NCBI GenBank assembly: GCA_025360225.1
Contig: JANYCN010000040.1
Span: 1 to 43,210 of the forward strand
Reading direction: 5' to 3'
Origin: Actinomycetes bacterium
GTDB taxonomy: Bacteria; Actinomycetota; Thermoleophilia; Gaiellales; F1-60-MAGs149
DNA length: 43,210 nucleotides
Shown here piece after piece: positions 5,696 through 38,386 of the stretch. The notes below the pieces were generated by a model. That model searched no databases, was not told where the DNA came from, and was given only the letters and a program-made list of their open reading frames with translations. Numbering within the stretch: position 1 is the first letter of the stretch; the number at the start of each line of letters is the position of its first letter. A program made the translations under genes and the position numbers.

Positions 5696-6310
5696 ATGGG
5701 TGACGTGTTTCACGCGGGGATGCGATCCCTGCAGCAACGGTTCGACACCGTCCGTCTCGCCGACCGCATCGTCGAGCGCCGCGTGACCGACACGATCGAC
5801 GAGGACGATCAGGCGTTCATCGAGGCGGCTGACATGGTCTTCCTCGCCACCGCCGACGCTGAAGGCCGGCCACAGTGCTCCTACAAGGGCGGCGACCCGG
5901 GCTTCGTCCGCGTCCTCGACAGACAGACGATCGCCTTCCCGAGCTGGGACGGGAACGGCATGTTCATGTCAGCCGGCAACGTGCTCTGCAACCCGCACGT
6001 CGGGCTCCTGTTCATCGACTTCGAGCGCCAGACCCGCCTGCGCCTGAACGGCGTCGCGTCGATCGACCCGGACGACCCGCTGCTCGACGCCTTCCCTCGC
6101 ACCCAGCTCGTCCTGCGGGTGCGTGCCACCGAGGTGTTCCCCAACTGCCCGCGCTACATCCACCGCTACACGCTCGTCGAGCGGTCACGGTTCGTGCCAC
6201 ACGACGACGGCACACCACCGCCGTCGCCGGCCTGGAAGACGCGCGACTGGTCGCGCGACGCCCTCCCCGCCAACGACCCCGCCCTCCGGCCCGGCACGGA
6301 GATCCTGTAG
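5696..6310 (+). CDS. Pyridoxamine 5'-phosphate oxidase-fold flavoprotein
   Basis: 204 aa. The split-barrel FMN-binding fold is visible from about residue 40: FIEAADMVFLATADAEGRPQ, CSYKGGDPGF, then FPSWDGNGMFMSAGNVLCNP and VGLLFIDFERQTRLRLNG. These match the PPOX-like family in which FMN or another deazaflavin/heme cofactor binds at the dimer interface. Such proteins carry out diverse redox reactions, and true pyridoxine synthesis is unlikely from this divergent sequence. A frame open from 5669 overlaps the hipA stop, but ATG 5696 is preferred because TATACT lies 6 nt upstream. Substrate unknown. Confidence 0.87.
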   Translation: MGDVFHAGMRSLQQRFDTVRLADRIVERRVTDTIDEDDQAFIEAADMVFLATADAEGRPQCSYKGGDPGFVRVLDRQTIAFPSWDGNGMFMSAGNVLCNPHVGLLFIDFERQTRLRLNGVASIDPDDPLLDAFPRTQLVLRVRATEVFPNCPRYIHRYTLVERSRFVPHDDGTPPPSPAWKTRDWSRDALPANDPALRPGTEIL

Positions 6311-6390
6311 GCGCCTCGAGGCGCGAGAACCCGCCTCCCGGTCCGCGCATCCGGCGCCAGGATCGACGCCCGCCCGAACCCGTGCTAGCA

Positions 6391-6396
6391 TAGCCT
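6391..6396 (+). promoter_or_regulatory. -10 box TAGCCT of a leaderless promoter (beta-propeller gene)
   Basis: TAGCCT lies 6 nt before ATG 6403; an overlapping TAGCAT (6386-6391) is an alternative. No Shine-Dalgarno sequence. Confidence 0.55.
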
Positions 6397-6402
6397 CACG
6401 GC

Positions 6403-8643
6403 ATGCGTTTCGCAGCTCCAGCTCGTCGGTTCACCTGGTCTCGAGCCGTACGATGGGTCGTCGCACCGGCGCTGCTCGTGGCGTCGTTGTCGTCCAACGC
6501 GCTCGCTCGCACGCCCGACGACCTCGGCCCGTACGGGTACACGTGGAGAGCTCTCGTGTCGCTGCCCGATGCCGCGCACACGCTGATCGCCGACGACTGG
6601 TCCGTGCTGCCCCTGCCGACGTCCCACGACGACGGGGCCACCTGGAGCGCCGGGTTCGAGCCGAACGACGCCGTCACCGCCTTCCTGGCGAGCCGGACAC
6701 ACCCCGGCACGGTCTGGATGGGGACACTGCGCGGTGACATCTGGACGTCCACCGACGGCGGACGTACCGCAACGGGGCCCGGGCACGTTCCGGGCGGGCC
6801 ATGGCTCTCCGCGCTCGGTCGCCGCGGCTCGATGTTCGTCGCGCTCGAGGGCTCCGGGCATCTCGCCCGGTCGACCGACCTCACGCACTGGACGGTCAGC
6901 GCCTTCGCCGACGGCTCCTACGACGCCACGGTGACCGAGGACGGCGTCGCGTATGCCGTCGACTACGCCGCCCGCACCATGCTGCGCAGCACGGACGGTG
7001 GCGCGACCATCACGACGGCGGATCTCGGCGCGGCCCTCTTCCCATGCCCAACCTTCGCGTTCGGGAGCGGGCGTACGGCGGCCGCCGGCGTCGTGATGGT
7101 CGACGACTGCGGCAACGTGTGGCGTTCCGCGAACGGCGGCGTGAAGTTCTCGCTGATCTCGAAGATGCCGCAGAACGACCCGCGCTCCGTCGCGATCGAT
7201 GCGAGCGATCCCGCGACGATCTACGTCTCGAGCCTGAGAGGCACAGCGGTGTCGCACGACGCGGGCATCACCTGGTCTGACCTCCCCAATGCACCGGCGA
7301 ACGCGATCCTCGAGGCGGACGCGACCCGTGGCGGGGTCGTCGACGTTCTGACCGACAGCGTCCTTAAGGCGACGTACGACGGAGGCGCCACGTGGCGCGA
7401 GATCGGCCCTCATCTGACGGCGCCAGGCTTCGTGCGGAGCGTCGCTCGAACCGCGACCGCAATGCTCGCCGGGACAACGGACGGGGTCAAGGTGCGCCCG
7501 AACGGCGCCTCGACCTGGCACGACGCGACGGGGCTCGGACGGGTGCCGGGGGAGGTCACGAAGCTCCTGGTCGACCCGTTGCGGCCCGACGTGGTGTTCA
7601 GCTCCGGCCTGTTCCGGTCCACTGACGGCGGCGAGACGTGGGCAAGGCCGGGAACGCCGATCGTCGCGGCAGACTTCGCGCTCGACCCGTCCGCGATCGG
7701 GTCGATCTGGGCCGCCAGCGACACGATGTTGGCACACTCCACCGACGACGGGGCGACGTGGAAGCACCTCCCGCTCGACGCGCTGCGACTGGCCGTCGTC
7801 CACGGGCAGCCGCAGACCATCTTGCTCGCGCGGAGCGACGGAGGCGTATGGCGCTCAACCGACGGTGGGGAGACAGCGTCGATCGTGCTACCGGCGAAGC
7901 TTCCGTTCCGCGGGTCGTGGTACGCCGGTCCGCAGGTCTTTGCTTCGCCGTACACGCCAGGGCTCGTGCTCGCGCAGACCCCAACATACGAGTACCGCAG
8001 CACCGATGGAGGCCTCACCTGGTCGCCACTCCTCGTCCAGCTCCGGCTCGATCTCCCACCGCAGTTCCTGCCGGGCGGCACGATCCTCGCGATCGACGTG
8101 ATCGGCGACGTTCTTGCGTCGCCGGACGGTGGCGTGACCTGGACGACGACGCCCGACCCGACCGATCCGTCTGGAGTCCTGACCTCGTTGCGCGGAATCG
8201 CGATCCTGGTCCCCCCTCTACCATCCCCGTTGGCCGTCGCCAGGGCCGACCGGCCGGTGGCGCTGGCCGCCGTTCCCGTCGCAAGCTCCGTCCCGCGCGT
8301 GCTGACGGTCCGCCGCGGCGTCCGCTCCCGGCTGTTCCGCGGCGTGCTCGCGCGCCTGCGCTACTACGATCGACCGGTGGCCGGCGCATCGACCGCGGTG
8401 ATCCGGGTACGCGTCGTCTGTATGGAGCCGCGCACGCGCTACTGCGGCGGCTCCGTCACCGTTCGCCAGAACGGCGAAATCGTCGGGCAGACGCCGTTCA
8501 CCGTGCCGCCGTCCCGCCACAGGCACACGTACACCGTCCGCGTTGTCCTGGTCGGCGCGATTCGTGGCGCCGCGACCGTCGAGCTGCGCGCCACCCTGCC
8601 GTGGCGGTCGGCCCTGCGCGCGAGCACCACGGTGCGGCTGTAG
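6403..8643 (+). CDS. Secreted Asp-box (BNR/sortilin-like) beta-propeller protein
   Basis: 746 aa. A signal peptide (Arg-rich start, hydrophobic VVAPALLVASLSS, cleavage near ALA-RT) is followed by a long array of Asp-box turns: STDGGRT, STDGGAT, SHDAGITW, TYDGGATW, STDGGETW, STDDGATW, STDGGET, STDGGLTW and SPDGGVTW. These S-x-D-x-G-x-T-W turns are typical of sialidase, sortilin/VPS10 and Ycf48-like propellers and are structural, not catalytic, so no enzyme is implied. The propeller ends near residue 595. The last 150 residues form a separate beta-rich tail with two cysteines (VVCMEPRTRYCGG) and no recognised family. It appears to be a single-gene unit with a leaderless promoter. Confidence 0.82.
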   Translation: MRFAAPARRFTWSRAVRWVVAPALLVASLSSNALARTPDDLGPYGYTWRALVSLPDAAHTLIADDWSVLPLPTSHDDGATWSAGFEPNDAVTAFLASRTHPGTVWMGTLRGDIWTSTDGGRTATGPGHVPGGPWLSALGRRGSMFVALEGSGHLARSTDLTHWTVSAFADGSYDATVTEDGVAYAVDYAARTMLRSTDGGATITTADLGAALFPCPTFAFGSGRTAAAGVVMVDDCGNVWRSANGGVKFSLISKMPQNDPRSVAIDASDPATIYVSSLRGTAVSHDAGITWSDLPNAPANAILEADATRGGVVDVLTDSVLKATYDGGATWREIGPHLTAPGFVRSVARTATAMLAGTTDGVKVRPNGASTWHDATGLGRVPGEVTKLLVDPLRPDVVFSSGLFRSTDGGETWARPGTPIVAADFALDPSAIGSIWAASDTMLAHSTDDGATWKHLPLDALRLAVVHGQPQTILLARSDGGVWRSTDGGETASIVLPAKLPFRGSWYAGPQVFASPYTPGLVLAQTPTYEYRSTDGGLTWSPLLVQLRLDLPPQFLPGGTILAIDVIGDVLASPDGGVTWTTTPDPTDPSGVLTSLRGIAILVPPLPSPLAVARADRPVALAAVPVASSVPRVLTVRRGVRSRLFRGVLARLRYYDRPVAGASTAVIRVRVVCMEPRTRYCGGSVTVRQNGEIVGQTPFTVPPSRHRHTYTVRVVLVGAIRGAATVELRATLPWRSALRASTTVRL

Positions 8644-9163: not shown

Positions 9164-9688
9164 ATGCTGCTCTGGTCGCTCGCCCGCGCCAGCGCCCTCA
9201 CGGCGTACGGCGCCTACACCCTGGTCGTGACGTGGGGCATCCTCGTCGCCGCCCGCGCCTTCCGCCCCGCCGCGCCGGCAGTCGCGCTGCACCGGTTCCT
9301 CGCAATGCTCGGCCTCGTCGGCGTCACGACCCACATCGCAGCGCTGCTCATTGACAGATACGCGAAGGTCAACGTGCTCTCGCTGGTCGGCATCAACACG
9401 ACATGGGGGATCCGCGCCGGCTCGATCGCGCTCTGGCTGATCATCGCGATCCCCCTCTCCTTCCGGTTGCGAAAGGCAAAGCTGATCTCCCAGCGCGTCT
9501 GGCGCCGCCTCCACTGGTTCTCCTACGCCGCCTGGATCTCGATGCTGGTGCACGGCATCGCCAGCGGCACCGACACCCCCTCCCCCTGGGCCGCCGCGCT
9601 GTATGCGGGCAGCGCCGGGCTCGTGGCCTCGGCCACCGCCTGGCGTCTGCTGCGCCCGACCAACATCCCGGCGCTCGCGCGCCGCTGA
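9164..9688 (+). CDS. Ferric-reductase-like heme b membrane protein
   Basis: 174 aa integral membrane protein with about five hydrophobic segments (starting near residues 8, 40, 80, 115 and 145). Paired histidines in two helices (LHRFLAMLGLVGVTTHIAAL and LHWFSYAAWISMLVHGI) match the heme-ligating arrangement of the ferric reductase-like transmembrane domain (FRD/MsrQ class). It would carry electrons across the membrane to an extracytoplasmic acceptor. There is no FAD/NAD-binding domain in this protein or its neighbours, so the electron donor is unknown. It follows the small secreted peptide by 1 nt and precedes a secreted protein and a two-component system. Confidence 0.82.
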   Translation: MLLWSLARASALTAYGAYTLVVTWGILVAARAFRPAAPAVALHRFLAMLGLVGVTTHIAALLIDRYAKVNVLSLVGINTTWGIRAGSIALWLIIAIPLSFRLRKAKLISQRVWRRLHWFSYAAWISMLVHGIASGTDTPSPWAAALYAGSAGLVASATAWRLLRPTNIPALARR

Positions 9689-9737
9689 CACGCTCGTCCA
9701 CTCCCGTACGACAACCCAACGCAAGGAGCACACCACC

Positions 9738-10361
9738 ATGGCACGCATCACCACCACCCGCCGCGGCGTCACCGCGCTCGTCGTCGGCATCGCCGCCCTC
9801 GGCGCAGGCGGAGCCGCGTACGCGGCGACCCAGCAGACACCCGCGCAGCAGAGCGCCGCGATCGCAACCGACGCCGCGACCCGTCTCGGCGTCAGCTCGG
9901 CAACCCTCACCGGCGCGATCAAGGCCGCGATCGGCGACCAGATCGACGCTTCCCTGAAGGCCGGCACGATCACCGCCGCACAGGCGACCGCCGCCAAGGC
10001 GCGCCTCGCGGACGCCAACGCACCGCTGTTCGGGCCTGGCCCGGGCATGCGTGGCGACCACCGCGGCGGCCCCGGTGGGCCTGGCGGCCCGGGCGGCGGC
10101 CAGCTCGAGGCGGCCGCGGCCAAGTACATCGGCATCACGCCGGCCGCGCTGCGCACCGAGATGGGCACCACGAAGTCCCTCGCCGACGTCACGAAGGCGC
10201 ACGGCAAGGACGTCGCCGGGCTCAAGGCCTCGCTCTCCGTCGGCGCCCCCGCCGGGCTGATCGCGCACCTCGACGAGGAGATCAACGAGGTGCACAACGG
10301 CCAGGGCCACGACGGCCCGCCGCCGGCCGGCGCACCCGCTCCTGCCGCCCCGACCAACTAG
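9738..10361 (+). CDS. Secreted helical protein with Gly/Pro-rich linker
   Basis: 207 aa from ATG 9738, which has an AAGGAG Shine-Dalgarno sequence 9 nt upstream. A signal peptide ends near AYAATQQ. A first helical module (DAATRLGVSSATLTGAIKAA then AGTITAAQATAAKARLAD) is followed by a GGPGGPGGPGGG linker at about residues 112-123. A second helical module contains YIGITPAALRTEMGTTKSLA. The two modules share an LGVS/IGIT-x-x-x-L pattern, suggesting an internal duplication. The tail is Pro/Ala-rich. Similar secreted proteins occur beside two-component systems in actinobacteria, but I do not recognise a function. The following response regulator starts about 30 bp downstream. Confidence 0.75.
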   Translation: MARITTTRRGVTALVVGIAALGAGGAAYAATQQTPAQQSAAIATDAATRLGVSSATLTGAIKAAIGDQIDASLKAGTITAAQATAAKARLADANAPLFGPGPGMRGDHRGGPGGPGGPGGGQLEAAAAKYIGITPAALRTEMGTTKSLADVTKAHGKDVAGLKASLSVGAPAGLIAHLDEEINEVHNGQGHDGPPPAGAPAPAAPTN

Positions 10362-10392
10362 CGCCCGACGCGACCGGCGCCCCGGACCTGCC

Positions 10393-11103
10393 ATGCTCGG
10401 ACAGATGGAAGAGAAGCCCCGGGGCGCCGCGCGTCGCGTGCTGGTCGTCGACGACGAGCCGTCGATCACCGACGCCGTCGTCACGGCGCTGCGCTACGAC
10501 GGCTACGAGACGCGCTCCGCCGCGACCGGATCCGAGGCCGTGGTGGAGCTCGACGTGTTCTCCCCCGAGCTCGTGATCCTGGACGTGATGCTGCCCGACC
10601 TCGACGGCCTCGAGGTCGCCCGCCACATCCGCGAGCGGCGAGAGGTGATCCCCGTGATCTTCCTCTCGGCGCTCGACCAGACGGACGACAAGCTCGCCGG
10701 GCTCGCGCTCGGTGACGACTACGTGACGAAGCCGTTCAGCCTCGCCGAGCTGCTCGCCCGCGTCGAGGTCGTGCTGCGACGGGCCCGGATCGGCGAGCAG
10801 CGGCTCCTGCGCTTCGCCGACATCGAGCTCGACGAGGACACCCACCGCGTCCGCCGCGGCGGCGTCGAGGTCGACCTCTCCCCCACCGAGTTCGCGCTGC
10901 TGCGGCTGTTCCTGACCAACCCACGCCGCGTGCTCTCGAAGGCCCAGATCGTCGACCGCGTCTGGGGGGACGACTTCCGCGGCGACGAGACGGTCGTCGA
11001 GACCTACGTGTCGTACCTGCGGCGGAAGCTCGATACGGGCGACGCGCCCCAGGTGATCCAAACGCTCCGTTCAATTGGCTACGTGCTCCGGGAGCGCTCG
11101 TGA
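10393..11103 (+). CDS. OmpR-family response regulator
   Basis: 236 aa. The receiver domain has the acidic pair VVDDEP, phospho-acceptor Asp64 (LVILDVMLPDLDG), Ser92 and Lys113 (VTKPF). The winged-helix DNA-binding domain runs from about residue 138 (LSPTEFALLRLFLTNPRRVL to the recognition region ETYVSYLRRKL and GYVLRE). The loop before the lysine reads ALGDDYVTKPF, one residue shorter than the common GADDYVTKPF form. Start may instead be ATG 10405. It overlaps the kinase gene by 4 nt (GTGA). It probably controls the adjacent redox and secreted genes. Confidence 0.95.
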   Translation: MLGQMEEKPRGAARRVLVVDDEPSITDAVVTALRYDGYETRSAATGSEAVVELDVFSPELVILDVMLPDLDGLEVARHIRERREVIPVIFLSALDQTDDKLAGLALGDDYVTKPFSLAELLARVEVVLRRARIGEQRLLRFADIELDEDTHRVRRGGVEVDLSPTEFALLRLFLTNPRRVLSKAQIVDRVWGDDFRGDETVVETYVSYLRRKLDTGDAPQVIQTLRSIGYVLRERS

Positions 11104-12425
11104 TCTCGCTCCGCACCCGGCTCGTGGCGATCTGCGCGGTGCTCGCGACGCTCGGCCTGCTGCTCGCCGACGTCGCCACGTACCGCTCGCTGCAGAGCTC
11201 GCTGATCGACCGCGTCGACGCGACGCTGGCGCAGGCGAGCGGCTCGCTCGAGCACGCGCCGCCCGGCGACGGCGGGTTCGGTCGGCGCGATCCCGGCTTG
11301 CCGGGCGTGTACGCGGAGGTGCGCGACGCCGGCGGCTCGCACGTGCTCGACACCGGACCGCCACCGCCGGGCGAGGCGCGTCCGACCCCGATCGTGCCCG
11401 CCAACCTCGTGCCGACCGCGCTCGGCGTCGCCTACCGCACCGTCGGGGGCTACCGGCTGCGGGCGGAGCGGGTCGGGCAGAGCGAGACGCTGATCGTCGC
11501 GCTCCCGCTCGCCGACACCGAGCGAACCCTCGACCGGCTGTCGAGGATCGAGCTCGTCGTGTCGCTGGTGGTCGTCGGCGCGATCGTCCTCGTCGGGCTC
11601 GGGCTGGTGACCGTCGGGCTCCGCCCGCTGCGACGGATCGGCGCGACGGCGGCGGCGATCGGCGCCGGCGACCTCTCCCGCCGCGTCGAGCCGTCCGGCG
11701 GGCGCACCGAGATCGGCCAGCTCTCCGCGGCCCTGAACGCGATGCTCCACCAGATCGAGCAGTCGGTCGCGGCGCGCCGCCAGTTCCTGTCGGATGCCTC
11801 CCACGAGCTGCGGACGCCCGTCGCGGCGGTTCGCGCCTTCGCCGAGCTGTTCGACCGCGGCCTGCGCGACCACCCGGAGGATCTCGCCCGGGCGATGGCC
11901 GCGATCGAGCGCGAGTCGAAGCGCATGTCGCTGCTGGTCGATGACCTGCTGATCCTGGCCCGGCTGGACGAGGGGCGGCCGCTCGCGCAGGTCCCGGTCG
12001 ACCTCGTCGCACTCGCGCAGGAGGCCGCGGAGACCTCCCGGGTCGTCGGCCCGGCCTGGCCGGTGATCGTCGAGGCGGGAGCGCCGGCGACGGTCACGGG
12101 CGACCCGGATCGGCTGCGCCAGGTGCTCGACAACCTCCTCGGGAACGTCCGCACGCACACGCCGGCGGGGACGACCGCAACGATCAGCGTGCTCCCGGAC
12201 GGCTTCACGATCGCCGACGACGGGCCCGGGATGGACGCCCAGCACGTCGACCGCGTCGCCGAGCGGTTCTACCGCGTTGACGCCTCGCGGACGCGCAACG
12301 CCGGCGGGAGCGGGCTCGGGCTCGCGATCGCGTCCTCGATCGTGGCCGCCCACGGCGGAACGCTAACGATAACGTCGAGCCTTACCGTTGGGACGACGGT
12401 GTGCGTCACGCTCGGAACGCCGTAG
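11100..12425 (+). CDS. Membrane sensor histidine kinase (HAMP-HisKA-HATPase)
   Basis: 441 aa from GTG 11100. TM1 is at about residues 8-25, a roughly 120-residue extracytoplasmic sensor domain without a recognised fold follows, and TM2 is at about 152-172. HAMP follows, then HisKA with phospho-acceptor His235 (FLSDASHELRTP). The ATPase domain has the N box DNLLGNVRTHTP, G1 IADDGPGM, F box region ERFYRVD and G2 GGSGLGLAI. All catalytic motifs are intact. It is the partner of the overlapping response regulator. Its last 20 bp overlap the end of the convergent M20 hydrolase gene. Confidence 0.95.
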   Translation: MISLRTRLVAICAVLATLGLLLADVATYRSLQSSLIDRVDATLAQASGSLEHAPPGDGGFGRRDPGLPGVYAEVRDAGGSHVLDTGPPPPGEARPTPIVPANLVPTALGVAYRTVGGYRLRAERVGQSETLIVALPLADTERTLDRLSRIELVVSLVVVGAIVLVGLGLVTVGLRPLRRIGATAAAIGAGDLSRRVEPSGGRTEIGQLSAALNAMLHQIEQSVAARRQFLSDASHELRTPVAAVRAFAELFDRGLRDHPEDLARAMAAIERESKRMSLLVDDLLILARLDEGRPLAQVPVDLVALAQEAAETSRVVGPAWPVIVEAGAPATVTGDPDRLRQVLDNLLGNVRTHTPAGTTATISVLPDGFTIADDGPGMDAQHVDRVAERFYRVDASRTRNAGGSGLGLAIASSIVAAHGGTLTITSSLTVGTTVCVTLGTP

Positions 12426-32215: not shown

Positions 32216-32701
32216 TCAGGTCACCGTGTCGACGAGCACGACGACGAACGGGTCGCCACCGGGAGGGGAGACCTCGAGCGCGATCCCGTAGCGCCCCGCC
32301 ATCGCGACGCCGTCCCAACGGGCACGCAAGACGCCGTGGCGCATCGACCTGACGGCGACGGCCGGACGCCCCATCTGCATGTCGAGCATCGCAACCGTCG
32401 CGTCGACCGTGGCGTTCACCGGCCGACCAGCCTCGGTCACGCGGACGGTGAACGACAGCGGCTTCCCGACCCGGTTCGGCGAGAGGCTCACCCGCACCTC
32501 GTAGCGCTCGTGACGCGCCGTCGTCGCGACCCGACCAGGCCCAACCGCAACCGTGACGACGGCGGGGCCCGCCGCGGTCGAGGCAGCCCTGATCGGCGGC
32601 GCCGCGACCGCCTCGGGCTCGCTCGCGCCGACGCTGCCGCAGCTCGTGGCGAGGAGCGCTGTGAGCCCGAGCGTTGCCGCCTCGGCGTACCACCGGCTCA
32701 T
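32216..32701 (-). CDS. YtkA/copper-resistance-like lipoprotein
   Basis: 161 aa. The signal peptide ends ALLATSC, an imperfect lipobox with Cys21, and is followed by a disordered Ala-rich stretch. The folded part (about residues 62-160) has the YtkA-like pattern: [40 protein letters not shown], and [12 protein letters not shown]. YtkA-like and CopC-related domains are Ig-like folds that often bind copper through Met and His; MLDMQMG is the Met-rich motif. The gene overlaps the upstream chemoreceptor gene by 4 nt (ATGA). A role as an extracytoplasmic partner of the chemoreceptor is inferred. Confidence 0.65.
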
Positions 32702-34272
32702 GCGCGGAAGCGTGCCGTCAGGTGCTCGAGGCCGTCGGCGGTGCGGGCGAGCGATTGGGCCGCGGTCGCGATCTCCTCCGCTGACCGTGCCGCCTCCGCT
32801 GCCGCAGAGGACGCTGCCGAGGTCGATGCCGATGTCCGGTCGGCCAGCGCAACGGCGTCCACGAGCGTGTCGACGGTCGTGCGCGCCGCTCCGGCGATCT
32901 GCCCGAACGCGCGCCCGGTGTCCTCGGAGGAGCGCGTCGCCTCGGAGACCTGCGCCGACGACGCGCCCGCCGCGGTCACGGCCTGGCGCGTCGCGACGAC
33001 GATCTCGCCGATCAGGTCGCCGATCGACCGTGCGGCCTTCTGCGACTCCTCCGCGAGCTTTCGCACCTCGTCGGCGACGACGGCGAAGCCTCGCCCCTGG
33101 TCACCGGCCCGCGCCGCCTCGATCGCCGCGTTCAGCGCCAGGAGGTTCGTCTGCTCGGCGATGCCGGAGATCGTCGCAACGATCGCCGTGATCCGTTCCG
33201 ACTTGTCGCCAAGGTCGCCGATCACCGAGGCCAGCCCGTCCGAGGCCGACGCCACCGCGGCCATCGAGATCGCTGCACCAGCAGCGGTCGTCTCGCCGTC
33301 CCGCGCGAGGTCACCCGAGAGCACCGCGGCGAGACGCGCCGCCTCGACGACCTCAAGCTGGTGCCCCGCGTCGGTCGCCACGGTGTCGATCTCGTTCGCG
33401 ATCTCCCCGACAGAGGCGCGCGCGTGATCTGCCGTCGCAACGAGCTCCTCCGAGGCCGAGGCAAGCTGGCGCGAGCTGTCCTGGATCTCTCGCACCAGCA
33501 CGCCGACGCTGTCGGCCATCGAGTCGAGAGACGTGGCGAGGCGCCCGATCTCGTCGGCCTGGTCGATACCTGAGCGCGCCAGCAGGTCGCCGTCGGCGAC
33601 GCGTCGGGTCGTCGCCTCAAGCGCCATGAGGGGCCGGCGGATGCTTCGACTGATCTGGAGGGCGAGCAGAACACCGATCAGCAGCGCCATACCGGAGAGC
33701 GCCGCGCCGACGACGAGCGCGATGTCCTTCGTTCGTGCAAACGAGACCGTCGTGCCTTTCACCTGCGTGCGAGCGATCTCGCTCAGCGTCGCCGCATCGT
33801 TCGCGACGTTCGTGTACGTCAGCCCGGCAGCGTCAACCGCGAGCGACCGCGCCTTCTGCGCGTTCCCGGCCTCCTGCGCGGTGAAGACGATCGCGTCGAT
33901 CTGCTTCAGCGTCTCGAACTCGTCTGTCAGCTTCGTCATCAGCACCTGCTCGCGCGGCGAGCGCGCACGTCGTGCGAGCTCCGCGACGGAGTCCGCGAAC
34001 GCCTGCTGCGCCTCGAGCGCGCCGGCCTTGCCGCGCCCGTCGTTGAGGACGTAGGCGTACAGGTTCGAGATCAGAGCACCACCGGTCGTCGCGACGTCAT
34101 CGGCCGCCTGCGCGGTCGGCGCCGCGTCGTTCGTCACGGCGTCGCCAGCGTCCGACAACGTCATGACCGACCAGGTAGAGCTGAGCCCGAGCGCCACGAG
34201 GAAGACGAGGACCGTCCCAAACCCGAGGGCGAGCTTGCGACCGATCGAGAGGTCATGCAGCAGGCGACGCAT
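32698..34272 (-). CDS. Methyl-accepting chemotaxis protein
   Basis: 524 aa. TM1 is at about residues 15-34, a helical extracytoplasmic four-helix-bundle-type sensor runs to about 183, TM2 is at about 184-206, HAMP at 207-260, then the signalling coiled coil with the conserved hairpin tip [20 protein letters not shown] ... [20 protein letters not shown] (371-410). The tip residues that contact CheA and CheW are intact. There is no C-terminal CheR-tethering pentapeptide (it ends TARFRA). The gene lies between two lipoprotein genes, 1 nt after one and overlapping the other by 4 nt, so all three are co-translated. The ligand is unknown; the neighbours hint at metal or a metal-bound protein. Confidence 0.95.
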
Positions 34273-34273
34273 C

Positions 34274-34780
34274 TCAGACCAGCTTCAGGTTGAAGGCGGC
34301 GTGCTCGGCACCGATCGTGACGTCGACCGTGTAGTCGTGTCCGGCCGGCAGGTCGGCGTTGTTGCCGTAGTGCAGGTCGGGCGGGCCGACGATCACGTCC
34401 TGCATCAGCGTCATGACGATCGGGAAGCTGGCACCAGCGGTGTGATCGGTGACGTTGACCAGCGGGTGAAGTCCCTGCATCGGCTTGCCGGTCCGCTGCG
34501 AGTAGACGTGCGCCTCGAAGTGGCGGCTATCCAGATGGATCGGTGCCATCAGCCCCTCGAGGATGAACTCGCCCTCCGCCGGCTTCTTCGTCGCCGCCTC
34601 CGCCGGCTGGTACATCTGCTCTGGCGGGACGATGTTCATCACGACGACGTAGGTCGCCGTCTCGGCGATCTTCGTCGCGCCGACGTTCGCGTAGATGTTC
34701 TCGCTCGTCGTCGCCGAACCGCCACATCCAGTGGCGACGACGGCGATGGCGGTGAGGGCGATCAGGGAGAGCGCTCGCAC
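34274..34780 (-). CDS. Tp34/P19-like metal-binding lipoprotein
   Basis: 168 aa from GTG 34780 (GGAG 5-6 nt upstream). The signal peptide ends in the lipobox VATGC (Cys19). The folded part contains [20 protein letters not shown], a Met/Gln-rich [20 protein letters not shown], and [20 protein letters not shown]. The LHYGNN ... LP-G-x-x-Y-x-V-x-V-x-IG pattern resembles the Tp34/P19 periplasmic iron-transport family, which binds Cu and Fe through His and Met on an Ig-like fold. It is the first gene of a three-gene unit with the chemoreceptor and the YtkA-like lipoprotein. Family match is by motif only. Confidence 0.65.
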
Positions 34781-37384: not shown

Positions 37385-38386
37385 TCAGGCAGCCGCGCCC
37401 ATCGCCCGCTCGAGCCGCTCAAGAAGCTCGTCGACGGCGGTGATCTGTGGCACGAACGTGAAGTTGAAGCCCTCAACGCCGCCGATGATCAGCGACGAGC
37501 GCATGAAGACGACCAGCTCGTCGCCCTTGCCATCGTCATGCAGCCGCTCGAGCAGCTTGCCAAGCATGTCGACCTCGAGACGCGGCGGGTCGGGCTCGAG
37601 CTCCATCCCGGTCAGCATCGTGATGCCGTTCATGTAGGACGCCGAGAGGATGTTGCCGACCTCGCGCAGCGCGGAGCGCCCCATCTCGTCGCTCATGCTG
37701 ACGCCGAGCAGCGAGCAGAGGCGGTTCGGCGCGTCGCCGGTGAAGACCAGCACGACGCGGCCGTTGTTGCCGGCGATCGGCGTCTCGACGAGCGCCGAGG
37801 TCTCGAGCGGCGAGCCGAGCATCGCCGTCGCCTCGGATGCCCGCACCAGCATCGCCTCGGAGAAGCTCAGGTCGACCTCCTGGGCGATCATTGCCGAGAG
37901 CGCCGTCGCGGCCTGCCCCGAGCCGATGTTCGCGACCTCGCGCAACGCGCTCTGCTGCATCGCCGTCAACGACGACGCGATCGAGGGGGCCTCGAAGATG
38001 CCGACGACCGCCGGCAGGTCGAGTAACGGCAGGATGCCCCCGGACTGATCGATCAGCGCGCCGGTGCAGAAGGGACTGCTCGCGAGCGCCGGCAACGGCG
38101 TGCGCGGCAGGTCGCTCTGCCCGATCAGCTCGTTCACGGCGAGCGCCATCCGCCGGCCGCCGATCCAGACGATCACGGCGTCCGTCGGCTCGTCCGCCCA
38201 GAGTCCCAAGCGGTCGGCGACCCGATACAACGGCAACGACTTGCCGCGAAACAGCACGCAGAGCGTGCCGCCGACGTTGTGGATGCGGTAGCTCCCCAGG
38301 CGGAACGTCTGCTCGACGTGCGACATCGGCAGGGCACACGGGACGTCGCCGACACGGACGACGAGCGCATGAACGGTCTCGGACAT
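37385..38386 (-). CDS. CheA-P5/CheW-like domain fused to two-site CheC phosphatase
   Basis: 333 aa from ATG 38386 (GGAG 7 nt upstream). Residues 1-130 form a CheW-like double barrel: HALVVRVGDVPCALPMSHVE, VLFRGKSLPLYRVADRLGL, VIVWIGGRRMALAVNELIGQ, GGILPLLDLPAVV. The wording is closer to the P5 regulatory domain of CheA than to free CheW. Residues 140-333 form a CheC/FliY-type phosphatase with both active-site helices: Ser146-Glu150-Asn153 (SALREVANIGSGQAATALSA) and Ser238-Glu242-Asn245 (SALREVGNILSAS). CheC dephosphorylates CheY-P. The fusion would place the phosphatase in the receptor array. It lies 79 bp after dnaE and before scpA; a chemoreceptor gene is 3 kb away, but no cheA or cheY is present. 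Confidence 0.88.
   Translation of the reverse strand: MSETVHALVVRVGDVPCALPMSHVEQTFRLGSYRIHNVGGTLCVLFRGKSLPLYRVADRLGLWADEPTDAVIVWIGGRRMALAVNELIGQSDLPRTPLPALASSPFCTGALIDQSGGILPLLDLPAVVGIFEAPSIASSLTAMQQSALREVANIGSGQAATALSAMIAQEVDLSFSEAMLVRASEATAMLGSPLETSALVETPIAGNNGRVVLVFTGDAPNRLCSLLGVSMSDEMGRSALREVGNILSASYMNGITMLTGMELEPDPPRLEVDMLGKLLERLHDDGKGDELVVFMRSSLIIGGVEGFNFTFVPQITAVDELLERLERAMGAAA

Follow-up and report, generated by a model that had tools for sequence, protein, structure and literature searches.

The window analysed here, a DNA stretch of 43,210 nucleotides, is contig C16 of an assembly of 3.24 Mb in 89 contigs. It carries on its minus strand three adjoining genes, all present as open reading frames with a codon-position GC typical of the genome: a gene for a first lipoprotein (34274..34780; 168 aa, GTG start, candidate lipobox VATGC), a gene for a chemoreceptor (MCP; 32698..34272; 524 aa), and a gene for a second, free-standing YtkA-like lipoprotein with the motif MLDMQMG (32216..32701; 161 aa). 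The first junction reads CTG GTC TGA G ATG, with a gap of 1 nt, and the second, GCATGAGC, is an ATGA overlap of 4 nt; the order lipoprotein, MCP, lipoprotein and the tight spacing reported in the initial annotation are thus borne out by the reading frames and their junctions. Both small proteins were read as having an N-terminal signal sequence that runs up to a Cys in a possible lipobox (VATGC and LATSC, respectively). Named from their translations, the genes of this minus-strand run are dnaE-like, cheW-cheC, scpA-like, scpB-like and rluB-like, then the lipoprotein-MCP-lipoprotein triad, followed by tyrA-like, aroA-like, cmk-like, plsC-like and der-like genes. Elsewhere in the window (9164-12425, plus strand), a response regulator and a likely histidine kinase are preceded by two small proteins without a Pfam match, which on reading look like membrane or extracytoplasmic electron-transfer proteins.

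The MCP consists of a four-helix-bundle (4HB) sensor (about residues 1-206), a HAMP domain and a signalling domain with an intact hairpin tip. It matched the Pfam profiles PF12729 (4HB_MCP_1) at 45 bits (cut-off 27) and PF00015 (MCPsignal) at 120 bits (cut-off 34.6), and PF00672 (HAMP) above its cut-off; with 12 MCPsignal matches in the genome, it is one receptor among many. The sensor was modelled as a plain 4HB with a mean pLDDT of 75; no match in the fold search passed E 0.001, and among the highest-ranking ones, with a probability of 1.00, are Adeh_2942, MCP2201 and LytS (5xsj). Its periplasmic part contains neither His nor Cys.

That the first lipoprotein is Tp34/P19-like, as had been claimed, is supported by its fold and not by its profile score, which is 14 bits against PF10634 (cut-off 21). 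PF10634 was matched by 3 of 8 homologues, weakly (best E 0.015), and P19 was not found in PDB sequence searches with the lipoprotein alone or with alignment A1. The AlphaFold (AF2) model, for which window and related-locus sequences were the input, has a mean pLDDT of 86.5, with the folded core mostly above 90, and its top 17 Foldseek matches in the PDB are all FetP, P19, FtrA or HftA, with a probability of 1.00, E-values starting at 5.8e-4 and query-normalised TM-scores of about 0.45-0.57. As predicted by this model, the first lipoprotein is of the P19-type fold without reaching the PF10634 cut-off. In an alignment of ten homologues, which includes the sensor-linked sequence of locus L069 described below, Met56, Gly70-Glu71, His87, Glu89, Met126, Asp135 and His137, followed by GNN, are kept; a profile of these ten sequences (A8) gave Tp34 as a sub-threshold match in the PDB (E 0.39), in which HxE pairs with HIE and HYGNN with HYGAN. 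The HxE pair, the Met and the His of HYG form a partial set of candidate ligands for a putative metal, which might be copper or iron. Among the genes of the window, no linked Ftr1/FetM permease was seen on reading. The genome also encodes a second, divergent P19-like lipoprotein (G000:C81:4476-5000, plus strand; L027), which is about 25% identical to the first and has no adjoining receptor.

Scanning GTDB species genomes with the lipoprotein profile A2 yielded nine loci, the best being L069, where the lipoprotein is 39% identical to that of the window and its gene overlaps the next one by 17 nt. A whole-MCP search had proposed this downstream gene as an MCP, which was rejected by its domains, 4HB-HAMP-GAF-GGDEF. 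Residues 10-261 of the GGDEF protein align without gaps to residues 1-252 of the MCP at about 30-31% identity; the MCP input (residues 1-250) scored 97.8 bits against this protein and its periplasmic part alone 47.8 bits, compared with at most 35 bits for ten other MCPs of the window's genome. A search for the lipoprotein in the order of L069's genome (298 genomes) added one further case, in genome G677 (locus L119), with a 4-nt overlap between the lipoprotein gene and a 4HB-HAMP-GAF-GGDEF gene, the input of which matches the sensor profile at 1.3e-50. A cognate lipoprotein gene thus adjoins the receptor gene in several genomes (window, L069 and L119), and the inputs of the L069 and L119 partners are the closest relatives of the MCP input, at 31-36% identity. 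The L119 lipoprotein-like protein, compared separately from the ten-sequence alignment, also keeps His87, Glu89, Met126 and His137; it has no lipobox Cys, and an uncleaved signal anchor may serve to hold it. On reading, both GGDEF domains show the motif GGEEF, preceded at five residues by an RxxD, and hence look active. A residue count revealed no conserved His, Cys or Met among the sensor domains, so any metal sensing would rest with the lipoprotein.

The three linked lipoproteins group in one clade (100/99), which a long stem (1.44 changes per column) separates from the members found at copper loci, and in a tree of 22 sensors the three linked sensors likewise form a clade (96/95). Among the neighbourhoods retrieved for less related sensors (L120-L138), none contains a P19-like gene, and among those retrieved for less related P19-like genes, none contains this sensor. 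In G399, a host of the GGDEF-type pair, each module is single-copy. The idea that GGDEF-bearing hosts have no chemoreceptors was weakened by two MCP matches in G399 and one in G677, against 12 in the window's genome. The lipoprotein and sensor genes are a real pair, kept across distant actinobacteria with a constant input and a swapped output; the 4HB input of the MCP (33655..34272, minus strand), shared with the lipoprotein-linked diguanylate cyclases, is supported by alignments A5/A7, the tree, the residue count and the fold search. Together these results point to a previously undescribed input module for metal sensing that can be reused.

The pair is known from three genomes only. Within the window's order it was found in the window's genome alone, and no close relative keeps it; the three linked lipoproteins together had a match in one of 396 genomes of a phylum sample, the window's own. 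In the family of G677, the linked lipoprotein was found in G677 only. Plasmids yielded no homologue of the first lipoprotein, and viral contigs none of either the lipoprotein or the sensor. Because its presence is so sporadic, the distribution suggests horizontal transfer of the pair.

The second lipoprotein has a different history. It scored 24.8 bits as a protein and 26.1 bits in the genome search against PF13115 (YtkA; cut-off 25.9), so its proposed YtkA likeness lies at the threshold by profile; it is the sole YtkA match in its genome. Homologues occur in 28 of 100 related genomes, mostly within long frames, and the two such frames that were scanned both encode CopC-CopD-YtkA fusions in which YtkA is the C-terminal domain. 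The second lipoprotein is 30-40% identical to this domain, and it keeps MLDMQMG (MLDMxMG in the fusions), with an Arg in place of the His of their VGHW. Its sequence points to a local addition of copper-type ancestry that is not conserved with the receptor. These data bear on the proposal that the three genes form one metal-sensing unit with two lipoproteins, in which the nearby CheW-CheC protein would also take part. All three genes are translationally coupled and the YtkA-like protein keeps the motif of the fusions, as this proposal would predict; however, the triad was found neither in 100 relatives nor at L069 or L119, where a YtkA-like gene is absent, the YtkA-like homologues of relatives occur as fusions with CopC-CopD, the copy here has lost the VGHW His, and no link to CheW-CheC was found. 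We consider such a unit very improbable, the least probable of the explanations weighed here. Of the extracytoplasmic partners originally postulated for the receptor, the first lipoprotein is thus retained, on account of its recurrence with a swapped output and its P19/FetP fold, and the YtkA-like protein is not. The CheC fusion noted 3 kb away does exist as a CheW-CheC gene (37385-38386, minus strand; CheW 7-128, CheC from 143) between the dnaE-like and scpA-like genes; the role ascribed to it in the receptor module found no backing.

Clues to the metal come from the surroundings of related genes. Less related lipoproteins lie near CopC-CopD-YtkA, DUF1775, SCO1 and cytochrome-oxidase-like genes (L024, L025), near HMA-type P-type ATPases (L023, L075), near ApbE (L077), or near DUF1775 together with a weak match to a ferrous-iron permease (L026, alone among the paralogues). 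At L119, a Fur-family gene (L119:7160-7852, minus strand; PF01475, 1.2e-22) stands directly upstream of the pair, and the ATGA at its end also contains a possible in-frame start codon for the lipoprotein, an arrangement suggestive of a fur-P19-GGDEF operon. The metal, if one is bound, may be copper or iron, the copper clues (paralogue loci and YtkA) disagreeing with the iron clues (Fur family and P19 biology).

The paralogues in copper operons without receptors could also mean that the first lipoprotein handles metal, in uptake or resistance, and is only co-expressed with the receptor, which would itself detect a related signal without contact between the two; 4HB domains of the MCP2201 type do bind small ligands directly. 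We regard this as improbable, because the linked lipoproteins and the linked sensors each form a clade of their own, and the two stay paired even as the remainder of the locus, and the output too, changes. Somewhat less improbable, though still unlikely, is that the lipoprotein does act as partner of the 4HB sensor but reports a non-metal signal, such as redox state, envelope stress or a small organic ligand, the P19 fold having been repurposed. The long stem of the sensor-linked clade, its own conserved residues (e.g., TLMQDV and RHxEAHxY) and the score below the PF10634 cut-off would fit such a change of function; against it, the candidate ligands His87, Glu89, Met126 and His137 are kept in 10 of 10 aligned members, including L069, and also in L119, and a gene of the Fur family precedes the L119 pair.

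We therefore favour, at a probability of roughly 60%, a binding-protein-assisted receptor, in which the 4HB sensor of the MCP would be the docking site for a P19/FetP-like protein that binds a redox metal or a metal-dependent signal. The first lipoprotein, tethered outside the membrane, would bind the redox metal (copper or iron) or the metal-dependent signal and might dock on the four-helix bundle as XylFII does on LytS; the signal would then run through HAMP and the MCP hairpin to CheA, the direction of the response being presumed. Elsewhere in actinobacteria, the same lipoprotein and 4HB-HAMP input would drive a GAF-GGDEF diguanylate cyclase, and an input that drives an MCP here and GAF-GGDEF there argues for a transferable module. 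By analogy, in the simplest model the ligand-binding half of the receptor would be the P19-like lipoprotein. The wider proposal, to which we give even odds, is a transferable metal-input cassette in which a P19/FetP-fold protein serves as the metal-loaded co-receptor of a dedicated 4HB-HAMP sensor, with chemotaxis as the output in one lineage and c-di-GMP synthesis in others; in one genome, a Fur-family gene heads the c-di-GMP version.

Sugars, amino acids and other ligands of solute-binding proteins (SBPs) are known to be sensed indirectly through such proteins. Activation by SBP binding has been reported for chemoreceptors as well as for kinases and diguanylate cyclases (PMC9602780). The first lipoprotein falls outside the known SBP families, its fold being P19-type, and the text of that SBP survey makes no mention of PF10634 (PMC9602780). 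The nearest structural parallel is the XylFII-LytS complex (PDB 5xsj), in which helices H3 and H4 of the 4HB carry a separate extracytoplasmic binding protein (PMC9769921), and LytS is among the fold matches of the window's sensor; however, XylFII is periplasmic and binds a sugar, and its partner signals as a histidine kinase, whereas here a P19/FetP fold is combined with MCP or GGDEF outputs. In the GlnH-GlnX-PknG system of Corynebacterium, an actinobacterial lipoprotein is likewise thought to signal via a 4HB-type membrane sensor, but the lipoprotein, GlnH, is an SBP for amino acids, the sensor, GlnX, contains 4HB domains in tandem, and signalling proceeds through a Ser/Thr kinase (PMC9769921). 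With P19, FetP, FtrA, Tp34 and HftA (PF10634), the first lipoprotein shares the fold and the HxE and HYG(x)N motifs; these proteins, however, work alongside an Ftr1-type permease to take up iron (P19: PMC6083913), whereas the partner here is a receptor and the Pfam score lies below the cut-off. The second lipoprotein resembles the C-terminal domain of CopC-CopD-YtkA in identity and in its MLDMxMG motif, but differs in being free-standing and in the lost VGHW His. In the literature searched, no case was found of a receptor with a P19/FetP-type metal protein as its binding partner. If the proposed function is correct, this would be the first receptor input with the P19/FetP fold and would give chemoreceptors an indirect way of sensing metals; it would also be a two-protein input module that moves as a unit between receptor classes, and a defined gene pair with which metal taxis and metal-controlled c-di-GMP signalling could be tested.

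Two further observations concern 4HB proteins elsewhere. At L122 (4550-7159, minus strand), a 4HB MCP is followed by a small secreted protein without a Pfam match, and the two may be a further case of a receptor with its partner. In six genomes of the class (L125, L126, L127, L128, L129 and L130), a free-standing membrane 4HB protein of 220-240 aa adjoins a cation/proton antiporter-like gene, several of these gene pairs having 4-nt overlaps or short gaps (e.g., 5882-6574 and 6571-7809 in L128), and the 4HB protein is possibly a regulator of the antiporter.
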